Source: a virus
Reading direction: 5' to 3' (one strand)
DNA length: 64,000 bases
Virus record (IMG/VR): IMGVR_UViG_3300042010_000030
Coordinates: 28,780 to 92,779 of that record
Positions 2-63,728 of the stretch are shown here, piece after piece. A program made the translations under genes and the position numbers. Position 1 is the first letter of the stretch. Each line of letters starts with the position of its first letter. Below the pieces are notes generated by a model. The model searched no databases, had not been told where the DNA came from, and saw only the letters and a program-made list of their open reading frames with translations.

Positions 2-373
2 CGCGATGCCAAAGAGTATCTGCGTCGTGTGATTGAAGACTACGCGACACTGGGGTTCGAAGTTGAGCAAGAGGTTGACTTGTTCGACCTGAGCGTCTAC
101 ATCAATGACCCTGAGCTTCAAGCGTTCTTCATGACTCAGCGCATGAACATTCAGCAAGTGCAGACTGAAGCACTCGGTGAAATTCTGAGCGAGGCGAACG
201 CTGGTGTTGACAGACTCAATCGAGTCAACGAAACCAACGAAGCAATCGCCCTGAAGAACGGTCTAAGCAGCATGCGCAAGATCATCAACGTCATTGTGGC
301 GCGACTCGAGGAGAAGAACATCTTCTTGAGTGATGAGATCAACAAGGTCTCTGAGCGCGACACGATTCACTGA
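2..373 (+). CDS. hypothetical protein, 5' truncated by window edge
   Basis: The reading frame is open from the window edge to a TGA at 371-373, so this is the C-terminal part of a longer gene lying upstream of uvsX. A GTG at 29 is in frame, but nothing like a ribosome site precedes it, so I treat the gene as cut by the window. The visible 123 residues are rich in E, N, R and L and look helical (for example MTQRMNIQQVQTEALGEIL). I do not recognise the family. In T4 the region before uvsX holds DNA-modification and replication genes, but nothing here assigns it to one of them. Confidence 0.7.
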   Translation, partial: RDAKEYLRRVIEDYATLGFEVEQEVDLFDLSVYINDPELQAFFMTQRMNIQQVQTEALGEILSEANAGVDRLNRVNETNEAIALKNGLSSMRKIINVIVARLEEKNIFLSDEINKVSERDTIH

Positions 374-395
374 TCCACATAAGTAAACCGTAAAT

Positions 396-422
396 ACTAC
401 ACGGGTCGATTGCCCGTGTAGT
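396..422 (+). terminator. strong hairpin without U-tract between two genes
   Basis: A perfect 10-bp stem (ACTACACGGG / CCCGTGTAGT) with a 7-nt loop lies between the truncated gene and uvsX. No T-run follows, so it is either a weak terminator or an RNA-processing hairpin. CGTAAATAC just upstream resembles a late promoter. The uvsX ribosome site (AAAGGAAAG) follows about 20 nt later. Confidence 0.5.
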
Positions 423-456
423 CTCACCTGTAAACTCCTAAAGGAAAGCATCAATT

Positions 457-1542
457 ATGTCGAGTATTATGGAACGTATGAAGAAAGCCTCGTTTGTTGA
501 CAGTGCTGCTGCACTCTCTTCATCCGAGTTCTTCAAGGGGACTGACCTGGTCGCTATGCCGGTCTACATGATGAACGTAGCGTTCTCTGGCACCCTTGAC
601 GGTGGCTTCATGCGCGGTCTGCACCAACTCGCAGGTCCTTCTAAGCACTTCAAATCGAACATGGCGCTTGTGTTGTGCAAAGCGTTTCAAGACAAGTACA
701 AAGACGGGATCATCCTGTTCTACGACTCGGAGTTCGGTGCAACGCCTGAATACTTCGAAACTGCGGGGATCGACAACGACCGCGTGTTCCACATCCCGAT
801 TACCAACATCGAAGAACTGAACTTCGACCTGAACAAGAAGCTTGACGAACTCACCAAGAAAGATCGGGTGATGATCTTCGTTGACTCCATCGGTAACCTT
901 GCCTCGAAGAAAGAAGTCGAGGACGTCAAGAATGAGAAGTCTGTCGGTGACATGACTCGGGCCAAGACCCTGAAAAGTCTGTTCCGTATCGTCACGCCGA
1001 AGCTGACCACGAAAGACATTCCGATGGTCTGCATCAACCACACCTACGACACTCAGGAAATGTATTCCAAGAAAGTCGTGTCCGGTGGTACTGGTATCGA
1101 ATACAGCTCCCATACTGTACTGATCATCGGTAAACGTCAAGTAAAAGAAGGTACTGAACTGCTGGGCTTTGAGTTCGTGCTGAACGTCAACAAATCGCGC
1201 TTCATCAAAGAGAAGTCGGCTATCCCTATCACTGTGACCTATGACGGTGGTGTTGATCGCTTTTCTGGATTGCTTGATGTTGCTCTGGAAACTGGCCATG
1301 TCGAGAAGCCAAAGAATGGCTGGTTCACTCGTCCTGGTGTTGCCGGTGATCGCAACTGGCGTCGGGCTGATACAAGCAGTGACGCATTCTGGGATCCTCT
1401 GGTTAATGATCAGAGCTTCAAAGACGCGGTACAACAGATGTTCTCGCTGACCAGTCCGAAGACTTTCACCATTGATGATGGGGTTGAGGAAATTGATGGC
1501 GTTCGCATCGACAAGGCAACTGGTGAGATCATCGAAGATTAA
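457..1542 (+). CDS. uvsX: UvsX-type RecA-like recombinase
   Basis: A 361-residue strand-exchange protein of the T4 UvsX branch of the RecA/Rad51 ATPases. It would coat single-stranded DNA and drive homologous pairing for recombination-dependent replication. The Walker A region reads AGPSKHFKS near residue 70, the relaxed UvsX form rather than the canonical RecA GPESSGKT. Walker B is VMIFVDSIG near residue 140, and the later YDTQEMYSKKVVSGGTGIEY stretch matches the UvsX L2/core region. Length is close to T4 UvsX (about 390). The start is ATG with AAAGGAAAG upstream. The helicase gene follows 78 nt later, the T4 recombination-replication neighbourhood. Confidence 0.93.
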   Translation: MSSIMERMKKASFVDSAAALSSSEFFKGTDLVAMPVYMMNVAFSGTLDGGFMRGLHQLAGPSKHFKSNMALVLCKAFQDKYKDGIILFYDSEFGATPEYFETAGIDNDRVFHIPITNIEELNFDLNKKLDELTKKDRVMIFVDSIGNLASKKEVEDVKNEKSVGDMTRAKTLKSLFRIVTPKLTTKDIPMVCINHTYDTQEMYSKKVVSGGTGIEYSSHTVLIIGKRQVKEGTELLGFEFVLNVNKSRFIKEKSAIPITVTYDGGVDRFSGLLDVALETGHVEKPKNGWFTRPGVAGDRNWRRADTSSDAFWDPLVNDQSFKDAVQQMFSLTSPKTFTIDDGVEEIDGVRIDKATGEIIED

Positions 1543-1552
1543 GCAATAGGCG

Positions 1553-1589
1553 TTGTTAATAGCCGTGCAGTCTAATACACTGTGCGGCT
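1553..1589 (+). promoter_or_regulatory. putative promoter whose -10 lies in a hairpin loop
   Basis: TTGTTA (1553-1558), 17 nt, then TACACT (1576-1581). The same DNA forms a 10-bp RNA-type stem (AGCCGTGCAG 1561-1570 / CTGTGCGGCT 1580-1589, two G-U pairs) whose loop TCTAATACA holds the start of the -10. It lies just before the helicase gene. Confidence 0.45.
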
Positions 1590-1620
1590 ATCTCATTTAA
1601 GTTGTTGTCGGAGTAGTAGT

Positions 1621-3027
1621 GTGCAGTCCATAGAACAAAGTATCCTAAAGGGTTTAATGTACGATGATGAATTTTCGAGGAAAGTATATCCATACCTGAA
1701 AGAAGAGTACTTCGATGGCGCAACCCGCGAAGTCTTCAACCTCTTTGGTGAGCTGTACGACAAGTATTCAACCATACCAAGTATGGAGGCAATGCTAGTT
1801 TCGATTCAAGCGAAAGGCTTGTCTGAGGATGTGTTTGAAAGCGCGGTCGAAACATTGCAGGGCGCGTACAACTCGAAAGATGATGCACCTGATACCAAGT
1901 GGCTCATCGACGAAACCGAGAAGTACTGTACCGACAAGGCATTGTTCAATGCGATCTACAAATCCATCTCAATCATCGAGGGCAGTGACAAGAAGCTGGA
2001 CAAGCATGCAATCCCTGAGATTCTGGATGAAGCGCTGTCGATCAGCTTTGAGCAGTCTGTAGGCTCTGACTACCTCGAAGATGCGATGCGCCGCTTTGAG
2101 TACTACACCAACACCGAGTTGCGTCTGAAGTTCCCGTTGAATGCGCTGAACGCGTTGACCAACGGTGGCTTGCCTCCTAAGACCCTGTCAGCGTTCCTGG
2201 CTGGTTCGAACGTCGGTAAGTCTGCGTTGATGTGCTATCTGGCCGGTGAATGGCTGAAGATGGGTAAGAACGTTCTGTACATCACTCTGGAAATGTCTGA
2301 AGAGGCAGTTCAGGAGCGTATTGATGCGAACTTGCTTGATATCTCGACTGACGACCTGAAGAATCCTGACCTTGATAAGGAATGGTTCCTTGGTAAAGTC
2401 AATGCACTCAAACTGAAGACAGTTGGTAAGTTGATTGTCAAAGAGTATCCGACAAGCTCGGCACACTCAGGACACTTCCGACACTTGCTGAAAGAGTTGC
2501 GTCAGAAGAAGAAATTCAAACCTGATGTGATCTTCATCGACTATATCAACATCTGTGCTAGTGCGCGTTATAAGGCCGGTGGCGGGGCGAACTCATACAC
2601 AACAGTCAAATCGACTGCGGAAGAGCTACGCGGGCTCGCTGTTGAGTTTAATCTGCCTATTGTGACAGCGACTCAAACAACGCGTGAGGGGATGAGTTCG
2701 CAGAACCCAGACATGGCGTCAACGTCTGAGTCTGTGGGGTTACCTCAAACACTCGACTGGTTTGCGGCTATCGTCACCAACGATGAGTTGATGGAGATGG
2801 GTCGACAGATGATGATCCTGATCAAGACGCGCTTTGGTAACAAGCAAGGCATGAAGCGTCAGTTGTTGGGGATCGATTGGAATCGGATGCGCTACAGCGA
2901 TGTGGACTCAGACACCGAGAAGGATCAGAAGGTGAAAGCTGTACAGCAAGCAGTCGCTAAAGACGAACCGCTGTTCAACAAGCAGCCGAGAGTGACAGGC
3001 ATCCCAGCAGATATTGACTGGGGTTGA
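1621..3027 (+). CDS. replicative DNA helicase, T4 gp41 family (DnaB-like)
   Basis: A 468-residue RecA-fold hexameric helicase that would unwind DNA at the phage fork together with a primase. Its order matches T4 gp41 (475 aa): an N-terminal helical domain, then the P-loop LAGSNVGKS near residue 195, Walker B DVIFIDYINIC near residue 300, and the ENSYTT-equivalent NSYTTVKSTAEELRGLAVE. SESVGLPQTLDWFAAIV matches the gp41 SAGLPATADFMLAVI segment. I choose GTG at 1621 because GGAG lies 7 nt upstream (1610-1613); an in-frame ATG at 1582 would add a basic Cys/Ser-rich tail absent from gp41. It ends 12 nt before a promoter-hairpin. Confidence 0.9.
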   Translation: MQSIEQSILKGLMYDDEFSRKVYPYLKEEYFDGATREVFNLFGELYDKYSTIPSMEAMLVSIQAKGLSEDVFESAVETLQGAYNSKDDAPDTKWLIDETEKYCTDKALFNAIYKSISIIEGSDKKLDKHAIPEILDEALSISFEQSVGSDYLEDAMRRFEYYTNTELRLKFPLNALNALTNGGLPPKTLSAFLAGSNVGKSALMCYLAGEWLKMGKNVLYITLEMSEEAVQERIDANLLDISTDDLKNPDLDKEWFLGKVNALKLKTVGKLIVKEYPTSSAHSGHFRHLLKELRQKKKFKPDVIFIDYINICASARYKAGGGANSYTTVKSTAEELRGLAVEFNLPIVTATQTTREGMSSQNPDMASTSESVGLPQTLDWFAAIVTNDELMEMGRQMMILIKTRFGNKQGMKRQLLGIDWNRMRYSDVDSDTEKDQKVKAVQQAVAKDEPLFNKQPRVTGIPADIDWG

Positions 3028-20223: not shown

Positions 20224-21294
20224 ATGACTAAAGCTCTCAACACTCCAATCGAAACCAAACGTGATGCGCGTGACCTGGTAGTAAGTGGTGACACTAAGAC
20301 CGCGGTTGCCGCCGCTTATGGAGTGTCTATCCGGACTCTCGGTCGCTGGATTGAAGATGCCAACGCTTCGACAGTTGCAAAGAAAGCCAAACCGGTGAAA
20401 GTTAAACAGGCTGTGATGCCTAAATCGACTGGCGTTGCAGGTGGTTATGCCGACGGTGATGCTTATCGCCAGCCATTCAACGCGCCGACTATCGTTGAAG
20501 ACGATGTCGAATACCGCGTTCTGGCAACTCGCAAATCGATCAGCCTGACTCGCCTGGTTAATAGCGCTGTGGACAGTTCGGTTGTGATTGATCGCAGTGC
20601 CGATACCTTCGACGAAGTGTTTGAACTGATCGTCAACAGCGGTATGGCTCAAGACGCATTGGAAAAAGCGTACTTCATGTGCCAGCCAAAGAAAATGGTT
20701 GAAGGTTTCACCAAAGGCAAGTTCAAGGTCGACGTAGTGAAAGGTTCGATTCTGTACACGCCTGATGTAGGTGTACCGTTCGAAGTCAGCGGCAAACTGA
20801 GTCAGCGTATCATCGACACCATTAAGAACGATGGCGTTGAAGGTGTTGAGTCGCTGTTCAACTTCCTGGACAAGCTGATGCTGAACCCAAGCAACCGTTC
20901 GGTTAACGAGCTGTACGGGTTCCTGACGCACAACGACATCGAGATCGCGCCTAACGGCAACTTCTATGCATGGAAAGTCGTGCGTGATACCTACTTCGAC
21001 GTACACTCCAACACGATGGACAACTCTGTCGGTAATGAAGTGCGTGTTGCCCGTAACCAGGTGAACGAAAACAGCGAAGTGACCTGCTCCTACGGTCTGC
21101 ACGTTTGCGCCAAGTCTTACATCAAACACTTCTCCAGCAATGGCAATCGTGTTGTGAAGGTTGAAGTGCATCCACAAGACGTTGTAGCAGTACCGAAAGA
21201 CTACAACGACAGCAAAATGCGTTGCGCTGGCTACAACGTGGTTGAAGATGTCACTGATGCATTCTCGGCAGAGATTCGTGGCAGCTCCTGGTAA
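20224..21294 (+). CDS. rIIB: rIIB-like protein
   Basis: A 356-residue homologue of T4 rIIB (312 aa), partner of rIIA. The N-terminus has a helix-turn-helix-like segment (AAAYGVSIRTLGRWIEDA, compare T4 LADWQGVSVDTIRRVLKNA). The C-terminal half is nearly collinear with T4: FYAWKVVRDTYFDVHSNTMD, TCSYGLHVCAKSYIKHFSS and VEVHPQDVVAVPKDYNDSKM. The ribosome site is GAGGATACATCGCA. A terminator follows the stop. Confidence 0.93.
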   Translation: MTKALNTPIETKRDARDLVVSGDTKTAVAAAYGVSIRTLGRWIEDANASTVAKKAKPVKVKQAVMPKSTGVAGGYADGDAYRQPFNAPTIVEDDVEYRVLATRKSISLTRLVNSAVDSSVVIDRSADTFDEVFELIVNSGMAQDALEKAYFMCQPKKMVEGFTKGKFKVDVVKGSILYTPDVGVPFEVSGKLSQRIIDTIKNDGVEGVESLFNFLDKLMLNPSNRSVNELYGFLTHNDIEIAPNGNFYAWKVVRDTYFDVHSNTMDNSVGNEVRVARNQVNENSEVTCSYGLHVCAKSYIKHFSSNGNRVVKVEVHPQDVVAVPKDYNDSKMRCAGYNVVEDVTDAFSAEIRGSSW

Positions 21295-27952: not shown

Positions 27953-29173
27953 GTGACCGTTCAAAGTTATGAAATGATCGAAAGCTACGGTAAGCCGATC
28001 AAAGCATGGACTCGTGGTGTGCTTGTCGAAGAGCAAGCCAAAGAACAACTGCGCAACGTCGCACAGATGCCGTTCATCCATAAGCATCTCGCAGTAATGC
28101 CTGATGTGCATTGGGGTATGGGTGCAACTGTAGGGAGTGTCATCGCAACTAAAGGTGCAATCATCCCTGCTGCTGTAGGTGTTGACATCGGTTGCGGTAT
28201 GATCGCTCAAGAAACCTCTTTGCGAGCAATCGACCTTCCAGACAGCTTGGCGTTGATTCGCAGTGACATCGAACGCGCTGTACCTCATGGTTTCGTGTCG
28301 ACACCAGGTCGTTCCAAGAATGGTAGCTGGATGGTCGCGCCGAACTCTGCAATCACGCGTTATAGCACTCTTGCTGATCGCTACGACAAGATCCTCGAAA
28401 AGCATCCGCTGATCAACCAAAACAACCCGTTGAAACAAATGGGCACACTCGGCGGTGGTAATCACTTCATCGAACTGTGCCTTGATGAGCGTGACCATGT
28501 GTGGGTGATGTTGCACTCTGGTAGTCGTGGTGCTGGTAACAAGATCGGTACATACTTCATCGACAAAGCAAAAGAAGAGATTGCACGCCAGTACATTCAC
28601 TTGCCTGACAAAGATCTGGCGTATCTGGTTGAAGGTTCTGAACTGTTTGACGACTACTGTGAAGCGGTGTCGTGGGCTCAGGATTACGCCATGATGAACC
28701 GTCTGCAAATGATGGAGCTGACCCTCGGTGTGTTGCGCAAGCATTTGACCGCATTCAGCTTGCAGAAGAGCGCGGTCAATGCTCACCATAACTACGTGTC
28801 GAAAGAGTTTCACTTCGGCTCTGATGTTCTGGTAACGCGTAAAGGCGCGGTCAGTGCGCAAGTCGGTCAACTGGGTATCATCCCAGGTAGCATGGGTGCG
28901 AAGAGCTTCATTGTTCGTGGTAAGGGCAACGCCGATTCGTTCTGCTCGTGTTCGCACGGTGCTGGTCGTGTCATGAGTCGCACCCAAGCCAAGAAACAGT
29001 TCACGGTTGAAGATCACATCGAAGCGACCAAAGGTATCGAGTGCCGTAAGGACAAAGAGGTCATCGACGAAACGCCGGCAGCCTACAAAGACATTGAAGC
29101 GGTAATGGCTGCGCAGTCTGCATTGGTTGATATCGTTCATACCCTGCGCCAAGTGATTTGCGTTAAGGGCTAG
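27953..29173 (+). CDS. rtcB: RtcB-type RNA ligase
   Basis: A 406-residue RtcB, which joins RNA 2',3'-cyclic phosphate ends to 5'-OH ends using GTP and manganese. Family signatures are clear: GVDIGCGM near residue 75, GGGNHFIE near residue 165, HSGSRG near residue 185, and CSHGAGRVMSR near residue 330 with the guanylated His. Length is typical. The start is GTG after GAAGAAGGAATTACACA. T4 repairs tRNA with Pnkp/Rnl1; here RtcB could repair tRNAs cut by host anticodon nucleases, or process the phage's own RNAs. It has its own hairpin promoter. Confidence 0.93.
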   Translation: MTVQSYEMIESYGKPIKAWTRGVLVEEQAKEQLRNVAQMPFIHKHLAVMPDVHWGMGATVGSVIATKGAIIPAAVGVDIGCGMIAQETSLRAIDLPDSLALIRSDIERAVPHGFVSTPGRSKNGSWMVAPNSAITRYSTLADRYDKILEKHPLINQNNPLKQMGTLGGGNHFIELCLDERDHVWVMLHSGSRGAGNKIGTYFIDKAKEEIARQYIHLPDKDLAYLVEGSELFDDYCEAVSWAQDYAMMNRLQMMELTLGVLRKHLTAFSLQKSAVNAHHNYVSKEFHFGSDVLVTRKGAVSAQVGQLGIIPGSMGAKSFIVRGKGNADSFCSCSHGAGRVMSRTQAKKQFTVEDHIEATKGIECRKDKEVIDETPAAYKDIEAVMAAQSALVDIVHTLRQVICVKG

Positions 29174-38687: not shown

Positions 38688-38912
38688 ATGATTTGCCATC
38701 AACAGCAGTACTATTTCGAAACCGCAAAGTGTATGCCTACCAAGGCTGACGGTGATATCGTCTTCATGTTCAGTATCGCTGAACAAATCTGGATCGGTGT
38801 TCCTACTTTCCTGATTGTCAAGAAGGACGAGTTCTTCAAGACCCGCTACAGTCACTGGATGCCAATGCCGAAAGCTCCTTCGCCAACCGACACTCACGCC
38901 TTCCTGGGATAA
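38688..38912 (+). CDS. small hypothetical protein
   Basis: A 74-residue protein (MICHQQQYYFETAKCMPTKA...) behind the promoter at 38613. Two cysteines near the start. It overlaps the next gene region by 1 nt. Function unknown. Confidence 0.62.
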   Translation: MICHQQQYYFETAKCMPTKADGDIVFMFSIAEQIWIGVPTFLIVKKDEFFKTRYSHWMPMPKAPSPTDTHAFLG

Positions 38913-38917
38913 TGATC

Positions 38918-39322
38918 ATGCAAATCACACTCGCAAATTTGAAAGACGCAACCGAACAGCAGATCTTCGATCAGGTGGCTCGTCACTTGATCAAACAGAA
39001 AGTCCGCGCCACGAACGACGCAGGTATGTGTCAGTACCGTCCAGGTAATGGTCTGATGTGTGCGGCAGGCTGTCTCATGACCGATGAAGAGTACGACATC
39101 AAGTTCGACAAACGCGGCAGCTGGTTGTCTTGCTCTGAGGCGTTCCCTGAGCAAGTCCCGAGTAAGCATGCGTACTTCATCGACATGCTCCAGAAGATGC
39201 ATGACATGAACGTAGACCGCTGGGACATTGATGAAGTGGGTGCAATTGACTACCCTCGTCGTCTCAAACACTTCGCCAAGAAACACAAACTTCAATTCAA
39301 CCTGGAAGAGCTTTCGAAATGA
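38918..39322 (+). CDS. paralogue 1 of a three-copy LKDAT family
   Basis: A 134-residue protein, first of three related copies (38918, 39319, 40380). Shared blocks are LxxLKDATxQQxFDQV near the start, HLIKQ, C.YR...GLMCAAGCL, and DDEY. The MCAAGC cysteines and the leading Cys could bind a metal. The copies differ mainly in the middle and the tail. Known function: none that I recognise. ATG 38918 has the better spacing to GGGA than 38912. Confidence 0.72.
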   Translation: MQITLANLKDATEQQIFDQVARHLIKQKVRATNDAGMCQYRPGNGLMCAAGCLMTDEEYDIKFDKRGSWLSCSEAFPEQVPSKHAYFIDMLQKMHDMNVDRWDIDEVGAIDYPRRLKHFAKKHKLQFNLEELSK

Positions 39323-39705
39323 TTACTTTGGCCACCCTGAAAGATGCAACCGCTCAACAAGTGTTTGACCAGGTTGTCACGCATATGATCAAACAAGGTA
39401 AGCGTTCGGTCAATCCTGGTTCACAAATGTGCCTCTACCGTGGTGTCAATGGCTTGATGTGTGCGGCAGGTTGCCTCATCGCTGATGATGAATATCTGCC
39501 ACAATTCGACAATGGCGCTGGAAACGGTGGCGGTACTTGGGATCGATTAGTATCCAATCAGACTGTTCCTGAGCACCACCAAAACTTGATCATCGCTCTG
39601 CAACGCGCACACGATCGGTCTGGTCTCATTGAAAGCGTCCTTGTGAAGATGAAAGAAGTAGGCACTACCTACGAACTCAACCTGGATGCTTTCAATGCGA
39701 GCTGA
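39319..39705 (+). CDS. paralogue 2 of the LKDAT family
   Basis: A 128-residue protein (MITLATLKDATAQQVFDQVV...) with CLYRGVNGLMCAAGCLIADD. It overlaps copy 1 by 4 nt, and differs by a GNGGGTWDRL insert. See the family description at copy 1. Confidence 0.74.
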   Translation: MITLATLKDATAQQVFDQVVTHMIKQGKRSVNPGSQMCLYRGVNGLMCAAGCLIADDEYLPQFDNGAGNGGGTWDRLVSNQTVPEHHQNLIIALQRAHDRSGLIESVLVKMKEVGTTYELNLDAFNAS

Positions 39706-40379: not shown

Positions 40380-40781
40380 ATGACTATCACACTGGCTACA
40401 TTGAAAGATGCAACAGCGCAACAAGTGTTCGATCAGGTTGCACGTCATCTGGTCAAGCAAGGTAAGCGTTCGATGAAAGAAGAGGATAGTGGTATCACCA
40501 CCGGCACTTGCGCATATCGTGGCACTGGTGGGACTATGTGTGCCGCAGGTTGTTTGATTGCAGACGATGAGTACTTGGCTATCTTCGATCCGTCAGAAGG
40601 AATGGGATGGCTCGAAATTGTCAAAGAAGGCTACGCACCAAACGCGCACCAAAATCTGATTCAAACACTTCAGAACGCACATGACAGTAACCAGCTGATC
40701 GAACAGGTATTGGAGAACATGCAACGTATTGCCATAAACTACGGCCTGTCACCTGCTGCACTGTTCGAGAATGCTGAGTAA
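40380..40781 (+). CDS. paralogue 3 of the LKDAT family
   Basis: A 133-residue protein (MTITLATLKDATAQQVFDQV...) with CAYRGTGGTMCAAGCLIADD. It is closest to copy 2. Ribosome site GAAGGAAGAAAAGT. The late promoter of the alginate-lyase-like gene follows. Confidence 0.74.
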   Translation: MTITLATLKDATAQQVFDQVARHLVKQGKRSMKEEDSGITTGTCAYRGTGGTMCAAGCLIADDEYLAIFDPSEGMGWLEIVKEGYAPNAHQNLIQTLQNAHDSNQLIEQVLENMQRIAINYGLSPAALFENAE

Positions 40782-40791
40782 GTACGATCTG

Positions 40792-40834
40792 ATAAATAAT
40801 CCTGCGGTATCCATTAACGTAGGAGTTTTATCAG
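40792..40834 (+). promoter_or_regulatory. late promoter within a hairpin that brackets the ribosome site
   Basis: GATAAATA is a T4-type late -10. CTGATAAA at the left and TTTATCAG directly before the ATG can pair, enclosing the TAGGAG ribosome site in the loop. Confidence 0.55.
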
Positions 40835-41455
40835 ATGTTCAGCTTTGGCAATATCACTGCACACGGTCAGGTCTATCTGTACCCTGAGAAACCTCCAGCC
40901 AATCTGGTGTGGACCGATCCTAAAGGCCACACCAACTATTGGTGCTCAGTACTAGGTGACACATCTGGTTCTAGCTCTAGTCCACGCACTGAAAGTCGTG
41001 AAACGCTTCCTGACAGTGCCGAGTCTTATAACTGGGTAGCAGGGGAAGCTGTTCACACCATGCAAGGCACGGTTCGTGTCGAGCTTGCGCCGAGTTCAGG
41101 TAAAGTCATCATCGGTCAAATTCACGCGCACAAAGCACCTAACCCATTCCTGATGGTTACATGGTGGAATGGCGTTGCGCGGGTTGACTTGCGACTGAAG
41201 CCTAGCGGCACCGCCGTCAAAGTCCTCACAGTACCCTGCAAGCTTGGCGAGTCGTTCAGCTATAGCTTGGCAATGGGCACTGACGATGTCTTGCAGATCA
41301 AGCTTAACGGCTTGGTGTATGCAGTGACTGTCGATGCGGCGTGGACCGAGTTCCCGTTCTACTTCAAAGCAGGCGCTTATGTCATCGACAACGAGGGTCC
41401 TGAGTCTGAAGGTGGTTGGGTGGTGTATGAAAACTTTGAGGTGAGTCACGTCTGA
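40835..41455 (+). CDS. alginate lyase-like protein (PL7 / alginate_lyase2 fold)
   Basis: A 206-residue beta-jelly-roll protein with the three conserved PL7 motifs in order: SPRTESRE near residue 50 (family RTELRE), IIGQIHAHK near residue 91 (family QIH), and FYFKAGAY near residue 185 (family YFKAGxYxQ). The catalytic Arg, Gln, His and Tyr positions are kept; the Leu of RTELR is Ser and the final Gln is Ile/Asp. PL7 enzymes cut alginate by beta-elimination. A late promoter drives it, so it is probably made with the virion or released at lysis, to break host alginate. There is no signal peptide. Confidence 0.82.
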   Translation: MFSFGNITAHGQVYLYPEKPPANLVWTDPKGHTNYWCSVLGDTSGSSSSPRTESRETLPDSAESYNWVAGEAVHTMQGTVRVELAPSSGKVIIGQIHAHKAPNPFLMVTWWNGVARVDLRLKPSGTAVKVLTVPCKLGESFSYSLAMGTDDVLQIKLNGLVYAVTVDAAWTEFPFYFKAGAYVIDNEGPESEGGWVVYENFEVSHV

Positions 41456-41459
41456 GGTG

Positions 41460-41506
41460 TTGACAAGGTGTAGTGATTGAGCCATAATCGACTCATGAGC
41501 TACACC
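41460..41506 (+). promoter_or_regulatory. promoter with -10 in nested hairpin loops
   Basis: TTGACA (41460-41465), 17 nt, CATAAT (41483-41488). Outer stem GGTGTAG (41467-41473) / CTACACC (41500-41506) and inner TGAG/CTCA enclose the -10. Close in sequence to the promoter at 36991. Confidence 0.72.
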
Positions 41507-41865: not shown

Positions 41866-41896
41866 ACTTTTTATCATGAGAAAGGAATTGCACCAT

Positions 41897-42166
41897 ATGA
41901 ACACTCCCAAATTCAAAGCAAATGACTTCGTCCGAATCACATACCCAGAAGGCGTCTCTTTCATCGGTGAGACGAATGTTTTGGCAGCAGACGAATCGCT
42001 GTACGGTCTGGTCGGTGTTATTCGTGCGACATTCAACTACGATACCCAGGTCAATGACTATGATGTCGCCATCATCGGTCGCAAGTACAAGTCCCATCAC
42101 CAACACGAAGCTATCGACGAACGCTTCCTGGCTCCGTATGCCCAAGACGTTAGCTCTGCCGCGTAA
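41897..42166 (+). CDS. small hypothetical protein
   Basis: An 89-residue protein (MNTPKFKANDFVRITYPEGV...) with AAGGA before ATG 41897; ATG 41876 lacks a ribosome site. The N-terminus reads like a small SH3-type beta barrel (KANDFVRIT, GLVGVIRATF, DYDVAIIG). Function unknown. Confidence 0.64.
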   Translation: MNTPKFKANDFVRITYPEGVSFIGETNVLAADESLYGLVGVIRATFNYDTQVNDYDVAIIGRKYKSHHQHEAIDERFLAPYAQDVSSAA

Positions 42167-42518: not shown

Positions 42519-42526
42519 TATAAATA
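42519..42526 (+). promoter_or_regulatory. perfect T4-type late promoter
   Basis: TATAAATA, identical to the T4 late -10 consensus, 34 nt before the ATG at 42560. Confidence 0.8.
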
Positions 42527-42559
42527 GTGTTACAATCTTATAAGATGGAGCACCGCAAC

Positions 42560-43069
42560 ATGAAATATCCACAATGGGCTGTCAAACCACGACTCAATAA
42601 CAAGACGGTGGTTCTAACCGATAAAGGTTGGAAAGTGTCTGGGGCCAATGTCCTACTGTCTTCGCAGAAGAGGATTCGTGATCGCATCAAAGCGTTCTTG
42701 AAAGCAACCACTGTTACTCTGACAAGCACTCAACTCCAGTTGGACTTCCAGGGCACCGCAGTGAACTTGAACTTTGCGAACATCACATCGTTCTTCGATT
42801 CTCCTACGACCTATCTGCCTGTGACTAGCATCGACATGCTGCCAGCGACTGCTACTATCGCCGTAGCGGGCACTCAGCAACTGACGTCGACTGTCGCGCC
42901 AGTCTCAGCATGGAACAAAGCTGTGACCTACACATCGTCAGCGCCTGCTGTCGCCACTGTGTCTGCAACTGGTCTGGTTACCGGTGTGACTTCTGGTACT
43001 GCCACTATCACAGTACGTTCTGTGAGCAACAACGCAGTTACTGACACCACTGTCATTACTGTTTCGTAA
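42560..43069 (+). CDS. late protein: KGW module plus Big_2 Ig-like domain
   Basis: A 169-residue protein. The N-terminal 45 residues (MKYPQWAVKPRLNNKTVVLT then DKGWKV) match the module of the SGNH protein at 11548 (MKYPSWSRKP...VVLTEKGW). The C-terminal 80 residues are a bacterial Ig-like group 2 domain (ATIAVAGTQQLTSTVAPVSA then VATVSATGLVTGVTSGTATI). Ig-like domains on virions bind cell-surface sugars weakly. The perfect late promoter supports a virion role. Confidence 0.78.
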   Translation: MKYPQWAVKPRLNNKTVVLTDKGWKVSGANVLLSSQKRIRDRIKAFLKATTVTLTSTQLQLDFQGTAVNLNFANITSFFDSPTTYLPVTSIDMLPATATIAVAGTQQLTSTVAPVSAWNKAVTYTSSAPAVATVSATGLVTGVTSGTATITVRSVSNNAVTDTTVITVS

Positions 43070-43114: not shown

Positions 43115-45361
43115 TTATGCGTGGTTATCAGCAGAACGCCATGTGCTACCATCCCACACTAACGTAATACCTCGACCAGCTGTCAGTGTAGCACTTGCAG
43201 CCATTGTCAATAACCCACCTGAGTTGTTTGCCACGTTCAGCGAGAACGTCGATGAGTTGCGGTTGTTGATAATCAAACGCTGACCAGCGAACGCACCCTG
43301 AGTCAATGAGTTAATTACAACACCAGTTGCTGTCGCTTCAACTCGAAGGAATATCGACTGATTGCCTGCAAACTGCAAATCAATTGCCTGGTTGCCCGTA
43401 GTACCGTACGTGAACACACGATACGCCAATGGACGCAAGTTGTAGCCTATGCAGAACTCAGCACTGACTTTAGGTAATGTAGCTTCATAACCTAAGAACG
43501 GGTTGCCTGGCAATGCAGCATCAAGTTGGATGTTAGTGAAGCGTGATTCAATTGCGTATTGTGATGCTGAAGTAGCAAGGTACGACAGACGACCAGTAAC
43601 ACCGCGAACTGACAGACCATCAACTTTCGCTGTGGTTGCAGTATCAAGGTGTGCAACGATCTTGTGGCTGTTGCCATTGGTGATGTTGAGTGAACCACCC
43701 TGCCATTCAAGATTGCCACCAGTGTTCAAGTTGACCATTGCTGCACCGTTATCAGTTGGACGCATTGTCACACGCGTGCCATTGACGATCAGAGTAGCGT
43801 TAGTCACTTCGAAAATCGAGCTTGCTTGACTTTCAATGTCACCACGGAAAGTAACGATGGTTTCGAATGCAGTGATACCGTTAATCACGACTGGTGTATG
43901 ACCGTTCGGGCCACGATACTTTAACCCATCGATCAGCAGTTTGGCTGGACCCGTTTTACTTGCACTGCTTTGAGCAACACCAATCTTCGAATGTGATACG
44001 TCGCAGTTGATGATTTGGCAATCGTTACCGCGAATCTGAATACCAGCACCACCGTAGTCGTAACCACGATGTGAGTCAACTGGCTTGCAGTTTTCAAAGG
44101 TGATACGCAGGCATGGACTGTGGGTATCAAACGAGTTACCTACGCTGTCTCGAACGACTGAACCAATTGTACGACCACGAAGGAACGGTTTGTCATCGCC
44201 CGCGACTGCTGATGGGGAACTTGTGGTGTAATCATGACGTGCAAAGATGCAATCGATGCCTGAAATGTCACTGTAGTAGGCTGCGCTGTCGTTAATCAAA
44301 TAACCATAAGCACCCAAGTCAGGGCGGTTCTTGATATTGCGACCAATGATCTTGCTCAGCTTGGCACGGTATGTACTTGTAAAGTTCAAGAACGGTGCGT
44401 TTATGTCATTCGCTCGAACAGTACCACCGAAGACCGGATTAATCAAACCCGAGATAGTGCAGAAGCTCGCAGTGACCGAATCAGCCCAAGTTGATTTACC
44501 TGCGAAGTTGTCGATGTTGACTTTAGCACCCGACGGCCGACAAACTTTGACGTTGGTCAGATATGTTTCATCGAAGACGCCAAAGGTGTAGAAGATATCG
44601 GCGCTTTCAATTGCACTAACAGTGAAGAACTCACCGCAGTATTGATTAGAGCCATCGAAGTCAGGAACGATATCGTCACTGAAGATCTTACCAATCTGAC
44701 CAGGAGTCGTGAAGCCGTGACCAACTGATGTAACTTTCATCACATAGGTATTGGTCGCGCCGTTGCCCAAGTTGTACGATATTTGGACATTCTCGGTTAC
44801 TGATGTGACAGTACCATTAACGCTGTTAGTCAGTACAAGGACGCTATTGTTGCCACCCTGAATGAACGTCGCGCCATTCATATCGAGGTCAAACACATCG
44901 GTATCAACCAGCGTGCGCGTTAGGACTGAAGTGATCTTGTACTGTGCACCTGGAACACATTCACCTTTTCGCTTGGTCAGCAACATTGCATCTAGCAGCA
45001 AGTTCCATGCGGCGGTATCGTCAGCTACACCATCACCCACTGCGCCGAACGTTTCAGGGCGCAACTTCAAGCGGCTCAGAATGTCAGCCCCTAGAACGTC
45101 GACTGCGCTATGAACGTGGGCAGTCGTAGCCAGGAGATCAGAATTATCTTCAACCGATGGCGTAGGGGCAGTGGGCAGCCCTGTGAACGCAGGACTCGCC
45201 AATGGCGCTTTCAACGGAGAATCGGCCTCAACGGCGTCATTCAGCGCATGCACATCATCAATGACCTTTTTGATCTCGTCCAGGTTCGTGTCCATTTCGA
45301 CGTGGGTAAGTTCAGAACCCTTAATCGCCCTTAGGAGTATGTTCGCTTTATCTGACAGCAT
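43115..45361 (-). CDS. tail spike / fibre with a beta-helix (pectate-lyase-like) body
   Basis: A 748-residue protein. The first 45 residues (MLSDKANILLRAIKGSELTH then VEMDTNLDEI) form an anchor shared with the next protein upstream. From about residue 105, FGAVGDGVADDTAAWNLLLD is the classic start of pectin-lyase-fold tail spikes (the GDGxxDDTxAx motif), followed by a long beta-helix and a C-terminal strand domain. Such spikes recognise and often cut host surface polysaccharide. A late promoter TAAATA lies 25 nt upstream on the minus strand. Confidence 0.85.
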   Translation of the reverse strand: MLSDKANILLRAIKGSELTHVEMDTNLDEIKKVIDDVHALNDAVEADSPLKAPLASPAFTGLPTAPTPSVEDNSDLLATTAHVHSAVDVLGADILSRLKLRPETFGAVGDGVADDTAAWNLLLDAMLLTKRKGECVPGAQYKITSVLTRTLVDTDVFDLDMNGATFIQGGNNSVLVLTNSVNGTVTSVTENVQISYNLGNGATNTYVMKVTSVGHGFTTPGQIGKIFSDDIVPDFDGSNQYCGEFFTVSAIESADIFYTFGVFDETYLTNVKVCRPSGAKVNIDNFAGKSTWADSVTASFCTISGLINPVFGGTVRANDINAPFLNFTSTYRAKLSKIIGRNIKNRPDLGAYGYLINDSAAYYSDISGIDCIFARHDYTTSSPSAVAGDDKPFLRGRTIGSVVRDSVGNSFDTHSPCLRITFENCKPVDSHRGYDYGGAGIQIRGNDCQIINCDVSHSKIGVAQSSASKTGPAKLLIDGLKYRGPNGHTPVVINGITAFETIVTFRGDIESQASSIFEVTNATLIVNGTRVTMRPTDNGAAMVNLNTGGNLEWQGGSLNITNGNSHKIVAHLDTATTAKVDGLSVRGVTGRLSYLATSASQYAIESRFTNIQLDAALPGNPFLGYEATLPKVSAEFCIGYNLRPLAYRVFTYGTTGNQAIDLQFAGNQSIFLRVEATATGVVINSLTQGAFAGQRLIINNRNSSTFSLNVANNSGGLLTMAASATLTAGRGITLVWDGSTWRSADNHA

Positions 45362-62684: not shown

Positions 62685-62864
62685 ATGATTGATTCATACA
62701 AGATGTGGGAACGTGAGCTGAAGTCAGTTCTGTTCAGACATGTATCCGATGTGCCTGCTGACTTTGATACGGCACACGATTGGTATGAGGACTACGCCGA
62801 GGGCATTACACCCTCAGAGTCGGTTGAAAGGTTCTTAAATGTCAAGCGTGATGAGGCTCAGTGA
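62685..62864 (+). CDS. small acidic hypothetical protein
   Basis: A 59-residue helical protein (MIDSYKMWERELKSVLFRHV...). Its end overlaps the convergent HNH gene by 30 nt. Function unknown. Confidence 0.58.
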   Translation: MIDSYKMWERELKSVLFRHVSDVPADFDTAHDWYEDYAEGITPSESVERFLNVKRDEAQ

Positions 62865-63728
62865 CTTGCAGTTGTCGAAGTGGTATCGATCCATATTCGC
62901 ACCTGCACCGATTTTTGAGCAGTGTGGACAAGTGCGTTTAGGTTTCGGTTGCTTATGCTTGAACGACATACGGCCAACGACAAAGCCTTCAGGGATACTA
63001 TCTGCTGGAACTCTCAACTGAGATGCCCCGTTGTTTGCCCAGACAGTCCCTGTAGTCGCGTTGTTCTCGCCTTGCTTGACTAGCGATTGCTTCAGCTTCG
63101 ATTCGTCTGTATGGGTCCTACCCTTGAAGCTGTTGTCGTTATGCTTATGCCACTCGATTGATGCAGCAGATAGCTTTACCCTAATCTCGGGGCGTTTCGA
63201 ATGATTATTTTCACCAGAAACACGCTTTGACATATGCTCTCGGATTGACATACCGCCAAGCGTTTCACGTTGTATGTCATGGTCTATCTTATTCGCTCGA
63301 TCCTGAGCAAATGTAACACCTGTTTCAGGGTTGATTGACTTTAGGTGTAATGATAAAGCTTTTGCGTGATTAACTCTAGCGATTGCTGCGCCTGTAATAG
63401 TCGTGTATCGTTCCTGTTGATACTTGTTAGATGCTTTCGTTAGAACTTTTAACGCATACCACATGCCGCGGGTATTCACCGCCTTCGCCAACATCCAGTG
63501 TGCAATGAAGTGCTGTCTTGCCGATAACACCGCATCGTTCCACGGGTTGAGTCGAAGATTCCGATATTCAGGAAACATTGATGAAGGACATATATGATGA
63601 TGCTCTGTATACTCACCATCAGGTAGAGTCGCGTTAGTACAAGCTTCAATGAACTTGAGATATCGCTTAAGGTAATGGGGACTTGCACAGTGCGGTTCAA
63701 ACTGGATATAAATTTCAGTACTGTTCAT
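62835..63728 (-). CDS. HNH homing endonuclease-like protein
   Basis: A 297-residue protein on the strand opposite to its neighbours. EYTEHHHICPSSMFPEYRNL, then NPWNDAVLSARQHFIAHWML, is the HNH pattern of phage homing nucleases (HHI-P, N..L..R.H...H). Later repeats such as SIEWHKHNDNSFKGRTHTDE resemble NUMOD-type DNA-binding modules. The end CPHCSKIGAGANMDRYHFDN, C may bind zinc. It sits right before the topoisomerase gene, a common homing site in T4-like phages. A late promoter (CTAAATA at 63788-63794 on the minus strand) precedes it. Confidence 0.82.
   Translation of the reverse strand: MNSTEIYIQFEPHCASPHYLKRYLKFIEACTNATLPDGEYTEHHHICPSSMFPEYRNLRLNPWNDAVLSARQHFIAHWMLAKAVNTRGMWYALKVLTKASNKYQQERYTTITGAAIARVNHAKALSLHLKSINPETGVTFAQDRANKIDHDIQRETLGGMSIREHMSKRVSGENNHSKRPEIRVKLSAASIEWHKHNDNSFKGRTHTDESKLKQSLVKQGENNATTGTVWANNGASQLRVPADSIPEGFVVGRMSFKHKQPKPKRTCPHCSKIGAGANMDRYHFDNCKSLSLITLDI

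Follow-up and report, generated by a model that had tools for sequence, protein, structure and literature searches.

Identification of a PL7 lyase gene in a pf16-like phage fragment

Does a short open reading frame on a virus fragment code for an enzyme able to cut alginate and, if it does, would this enzyme act as part of the virion or as a free protein? The reading frame lies in a 64-kb window, which is the whole stretch of DNA analysed and spans bases 28780-92779 of a virus record 92,779 bases long. The baseplate region of the record shows 73% nucleotide identity to that of pf16, a T4-like P. putida phage (PMC5587285), and sequence comparison identifies the record as a fragment of a pf16-like (T4-like) Pseudomonas phage. 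The gene and its ribosome-binding site are:

40835..41455 (+): PL7 polysaccharide lyase gene, 206 aa plus stop, ATG start, single catalytic domain
40821..40825 (+): ribosome-binding site AGGAG, read from the sequence before the lyase ATG

The protein computed from this ORF has a molecular mass of 22.5 kDa and a pI of 5.3. The Pfam family Alginate_lyase2 (PF08787) matched residues 27-205 with an E value of 5.3e-33 and a score of 115.1 bits, above the curated cut-off of 29.7. A phmmer search of the PDB returned PA1167 of P. aeruginosa (1vav) as the closest protein, with an E value of 6.9e-25 that is far beyond chance, then A1-II' of Sphingomonas sp. A1 (2cws, 5e-20), and the glucuronan lyase 7nde matched as well (2.8e-8). 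No NCBIfam family was found for the protein, and PHROGs gave a weak match to one family of unknown function only (phrog_31475, E 0.0013). The AlphaFold2 model, built from a 34-sequence alignment, is beta-rich, with a mean pLDDT of 92.7 and a pTM of 0.90, and exhibits the beta-jelly-roll fold of PL7. Foldseek with this model placed 1vav first (TM 0.85 by query length), and all the top matches were PL7 proteins, including 7nde. The ORF 40835-41455 is an intact PL7 gene, and its product probably cuts alginate. This agrees with the preliminary description, which had assigned a beta-rich protein of 206 residues to PL7 on the motifs SPRTESRE, (G)QIH and YFKAGAY, all three found here in that order.

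The lyase belongs to a clade of phages and prophages

Relatives of the lyase were found in the GenBank phages phiK7A1 (73% identity), Ep020 (56%) and Arace01 (49%), and on 25 contigs of IMG/VR; GenBank already names the phiK7A1 copy a PL7 protein and annotates that of Arace01 as hypothetical. Five Pseudomonas genomes carry copies with 56-62% identity, and phage-type PL7 was present in 6 genomes of a draw of 299 from this genus. A plasmid search with the lyase gave distant PL7s only. Among the contigs of this Pseudomonas-genome group, L027 and L029 are prophage-like and carry a terminase, and no terminase was found on L024 and L028. One Pseudomonas genome (G036, best match locus L069) had two phage-type PL7 matches, one of them covering query residues 3-145 only.

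The tree separates all 32 of the phage and mobile rows from the cellular PL7s by a long branch (100/100). Its cellular PL7s are those that one scan returned, so the tree may lack a sister group of cellular origin. The lyase groups here with copies from phages, prophages and Pseudomonas genomes in a clade with strong support (100/100), and the clade is found almost only in phages and prophages. It appears undescribed so far: a search of the open-access literature for phage PL7 gave no study of the clade and only reviews of older activities. Where the hosts of the close phage relatives are known, they are Pseudomonas, which supports the earlier suggestion of an alginate-making host.

Catalytic residues, two substitutions and the substrate

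PL7 enzymes are defined by the motifs RXEXR, QXH and YXKAGXYXQ; in their chemistry a His is the base, a Tyr the acid, and a Gln neutralises the C-5 carboxylate (PMC8618178, PMC9345997). The corresponding stretches of the lyase are:

40985..40999 (+): motif SA3, R51-T-E53-S-R55 (family RXEXR), strand 51-55 in the model, by the definition of PMC8618178
41117..41125 (+): motif SA5, Q95-I-H97 (family QXH), from the alignment
41360..41386 (+): motif SA4, Y176-F-K178-A-G-A-Y182-V-I184, from the alignment, with Ile184 in place of the usual final Gln

The lyase has both RXEXR and QXH, and its SA4 (YFKAGAYVI) keeps K178 and Y182, with Ile at the last position versus the family Gln. The residues R51, E53, R55, Q95, H97, K178 and Y182 are invariant in 34/34 aligned proteins. 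H97 aligns with His191 of A1-II' (Asn in the mutant chain 2zaa) and Y182 with Tyr284 (Phe in the chains 2zab and 2zaa); from these alignments, H97 is the predicted general base and Y182 the predicted general acid. PA1167 shares with the lyase the PL7 fold, the small size, the single domain and all the catalytic residues, but it is a cellular protein, ~29% identical in the structural match, and keeps RSELR and YLQ. A1-II' has the same catalytic Gln/His/Tyr and Arg set, whereas its motif ends in YVQ and its identity in the structural match is ~28%. The two substituted motif positions could be taken to mean that the PL7 fold was kept in a protein that only binds its ligand or is inactive. However, the clade shows no variation at any of the examined residues for catalysis or carboxylate binding, and the gene is, by sequence comparison, under purifying selection (dN/dS 0.12 against the copy in L008, synonymous sites being saturated against most of the more distant relatives), and we consider such a loss of activity very improbable.

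The preliminary description had correctly read RTESR for RTELR and the loss of the last Gln, and had proposed that both may shift specificity. Both substitutions are common to relatives and thus are not sequencing errors; for RTESR, which recurs in independent phages, this origin is ruled out. Most members of the phage clade have S as the fourth residue of RXEXR; L017 and L030 have T, L022 and part of the prophage group have G, L026 has F, and Ep020 and Arace01 have L. Since R51, E53 and R55 alternate on strand 51-55 and face the cleft, residue 54 should point away from it; a specificity switch at this freely varying position is unsupported, and this half of the proposal was abandoned. The last position of SA4 is Ile in the phage-clade members, the Gln-to-Ile change being fixed across the clade, and by the same strand alternation I184 should lie on the cleft side. 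Cellular Pseudomonas PL7s have A, N or Q there (YIADN in L041, YVNDN in L048). Judged from the sequences, only Gln-to-Ile could be a reasonable candidate for an effect on specificity: its presence throughout the clade and its expected side speak for it, and the absence of Gln from some cellular Pseudomonas PL7s speaks against it.

The same clade-wide change, together with the long branch from the cellular PL7s and the existence of a PL7 glucuronan lyase (7nde), would also fit an active enzyme whose substrate is not alginate but another polyuronate, glucuronan-like or some other host exopolysaccharide. Against this, the nearest solved structures are the alginate lyases PA1167 and A1-II' (E 6e-59 and 1e-42, vs 3e-21 for 7nde), the Gln is missing in some cellular enzymes of Pseudomonas too, and the obvious uronan in such hosts is alginate, which Pseudomonas produces as slime. 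We therefore hold another substrate to be rather improbable. That PL7 also includes 7nde counts against taking alginate for certain; by analogy with the nearest enzymes, and in view of the hosts, alginate is the likeliest substrate.

Genomic contexts of the lyase

The lyase sits in a + strand block of small, non-structural genes, between two homologues of pf16 genes:

40380..40781 (+): upstream neighbour, homologue of pf16 gp226 (41% to the pf16 ORF at 153632; phrog_17693)
41876..42166 (+): downstream neighbour, homologue of pf16 gp224, from sequence comparison with pf16

By this comparison, the upstream homologue is the left edge and the downstream one the right edge of an inserted stretch that holds the lyase. 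In pf16 the 204-bp gp225 alone lies between gp226 and gp224, and the PL7 search of GenBank phages gave no match in pf16; the lyase is thus, as far as sequence comparison goes, an accessory gene in the pf16-like lineage. Besides the baseplate, pf16 (Chakrabartyvirus) resembles the present phage in the homologous small genes on either side of the lyase and in the late sigma factor, and differs in being without a PL7 gene.

Some other features of the window were recorded. Three gp226 paralogues are clustered just upstream of the lyase (38912-39322, 39319-39705 and 40380-40781, all +), the third of which is missing beside the lyase in L006 and L008. A 748-aa tail spike with a Phage_depo_C domain (43115-45361, -) is 36-37% identical to its counterpart in L006, amid genes that are mostly 97-100% identical, which points to a fast-exchanging receptor-binding or depolymerase protein. 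We found also an RtcB-type tRNA-splicing ligase (phrog_1075, 27953-29173, +), a homing/HNH endonuclease (phrog_655, 62835-63728, -) and a homologue of the lysis inhibitor RIIB (20224-21294, +), followed by a 132-aa ORF (21393) that has an ATAAATA box and matched no known PHROG family.

The PL7 clade spans at least six phage backbones without common flanking genes. The flanking-gene sets, which share no genes, are:

pf16-like; K7A1-like; Ep020; N4-like (Arace01, L026)
further sets: L011/L014/L016/L023; L017/L030; L022; the prophage group

The neighbours identified in other phages are genes of replication, nucleotide metabolism and other metabolism, or takeover (among them primase/helicase, exonuclease, DNA ligase, helicase, N4-like RNA polymerase, PhoH, nicotinamide phosphoribosyltransferase and DNA methyltransferases), and tail genes are not among them. 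The closest named relative, phiK7A1 gp116 ('polysaccharide lyase family 7 protein', QNR53904.1), is likewise a stand-alone protein, of 208 aa, with the same RTESRE and YFKAGAYVIDN; unlike the present gene, it lies in an unrelated backbone, between primase/helicase and exonuclease genes, with no TAAATA box upstream. In ventosus, a K7A1 relative, no lyase is annotated in the interval from DNA polymerase to exonuclease, and the GenBank phage search gave no match. In Ep020, related to K7A1 by its exonuclease (62%), the lyase is ~28 kb from the exonuclease gene. The related phage L017 carries near its lyase, at 277-2876 (-), genes for a nicotinamide phosphoribosyltransferase and a ribose-phosphate pyrophosphokinase, an NAD-synthesis pair.

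A candidate late promoter precedes the lyase

Two promoter-like sequences flank the gene:

40792..40798 (+): ATAAATA, candidate T4-type late promoter -10 element, 43 nt before the lyase ATG
41460..41488 (+): near-consensus sigma-70 promoter TTGACA-17-CATAAT, 11/12 matches, from a scan that overall yielded no more sites than shuffles did

The upstream box, GATAAATA (TAAATA core at 40793-40798), matches the T4-type late consensus TATAAATA in 7/8 letters. The two strands of the window together hold only five copies of ATAAATA, the perfect consensus included, and every copy is followed at 39-43 nt by the ATG of an ORF. These ORFs are head closure (56377), a baseplate wedge gene (50720), an Ig-domain protein (42560), the ORF after rIIB, and the lyase; three of the five are thus structural genes. 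The stretch 42519-43069 (+) holds the perfect box and, behind it, the Ig-domain (Big_2) structural protein at the end of the + block. Both tail-spike-like genes have TAAATA 30 nt upstream. When only Shine-Dalgarno-supported starts were counted, TAAATA lay near starts in 5/18 cases versus 9/189 for its anagrams, which is supportive at these small numbers. The leader from the box to the lyase ATG is identical in L006 and differs by 1 base in L008, and the sequence farther upstream diverges. The record also carries a late sigma factor gene, 78% identical to pf16 gp98, and pf16 itself has the consensus ahead of structural genes (PMC5587285). The phage's own late sigma factor, the position of the box and the conserved leader together make a T4-type late promoter credible, as had been proposed from the TAAATA element, and late expression of the lyase likely.

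The downstream sigma-70 site likely restarts, on weak evidence, the transcription of the next small genes, and the location of the lyase in the + block may allow its early transcription by read-through. In K7A1-type phages the lyase lies among replication genes without a TAAATA box, so the timing may differ between phages.

A soluble enzyme or a virion component

The late-type promoter, the tail-spike and Ig structural genes within ~4 kb after the lyase, and reviews that describe phage alginate lyases as virion-associated (PMC5380687, PMC10975011) would all fit an enzyme carried on the tail or capsid, clearing alginate during adsorption. However, profile search and model show a catalytic domain that fills the whole protein, with no N- or C-terminal anchoring domain found; the identified neighbours in the other backbones are non-structural, and the same phage encodes its tail spike, which has a Phage_depo_C domain, as a separate protein. 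The lyase is a 206-aa jelly roll in a non-structural block, and does not look like a tail-spike depolymerase. A small protein can be part of a phage virion even when it has no recognisable anchor. On balance, we regard a place on the virion as unlikely.

The N-terminus shows no hydrophobic signal-like stretch and no obvious signal peptide. Since anchor and signal were not seen and the neighbourhoods are non-structural, a soluble enzyme set free at lysis is favoured over a virion part, and these features and the late-type promoter fit a cytoplasmic protein. Of the soluble or virion depolymerase offered by the preliminary description, the soluble form is the one retained, the virion-bound form being less likely.

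We infer that the substrate is alginate, that the gene is expressed late and that the enzyme is released when the cell lyses. The lyase would be a soluble, catalytically competent PL7 enzyme cleaving bacterial alginate by beta-elimination, with His97 as base, Tyr182 as acid, and Gln95 together with Arg51/Arg55 holding the uronate carboxyls. The accessory gene would be transcribed late from the T4-type promoter and its product would accumulate in the cytoplasm. Lysis would then free the enzyme, which would thin the alginate surrounding the lysed cell and let the progeny diffuse and reach neighbouring cells. This explanation as a whole, a late-made soluble alginate lyase set free at lysis, we consider probable.

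Significance

Neither PL7 enzymes nor alginate lyase activities of phages are new (PMC5380687), and the clade-level pattern is the interesting part. Phage alginate lyases have long been reported by activity, as for the P. aeruginosa phage PT-6 (~37 kDa) and an Azotobacter vinelandii phage (30-35 kDa), both without gene accession (given as ND in PMC5380687). Like the predicted lyase, these are phage-made alginate-degrading enzymes; unlike it, they are larger than 22.5 kDa. The PL7 clade provides concrete, small, single-domain Pseudomonas phage genes, testable against mucoid biofilm. That one family turns up in at least six backbones without common flanking genes marks the clearance of alginate as an accessory function gained repeatedly, and where the gene sits suggests that the enzyme is released, not bound to the tail. 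We propose, tentatively and at somewhat less than even confidence, that a phage and prophage PL7 subfamily, set off from the cellular PL7s and crossing unrelated Pseudomonas phage lineages, may supply a soluble alginase released at lysis that would benefit the progeny collectively. If true, this subfamily may lie behind some of the alginase activities of phages that have been on record since 1977 with no sequence attached.
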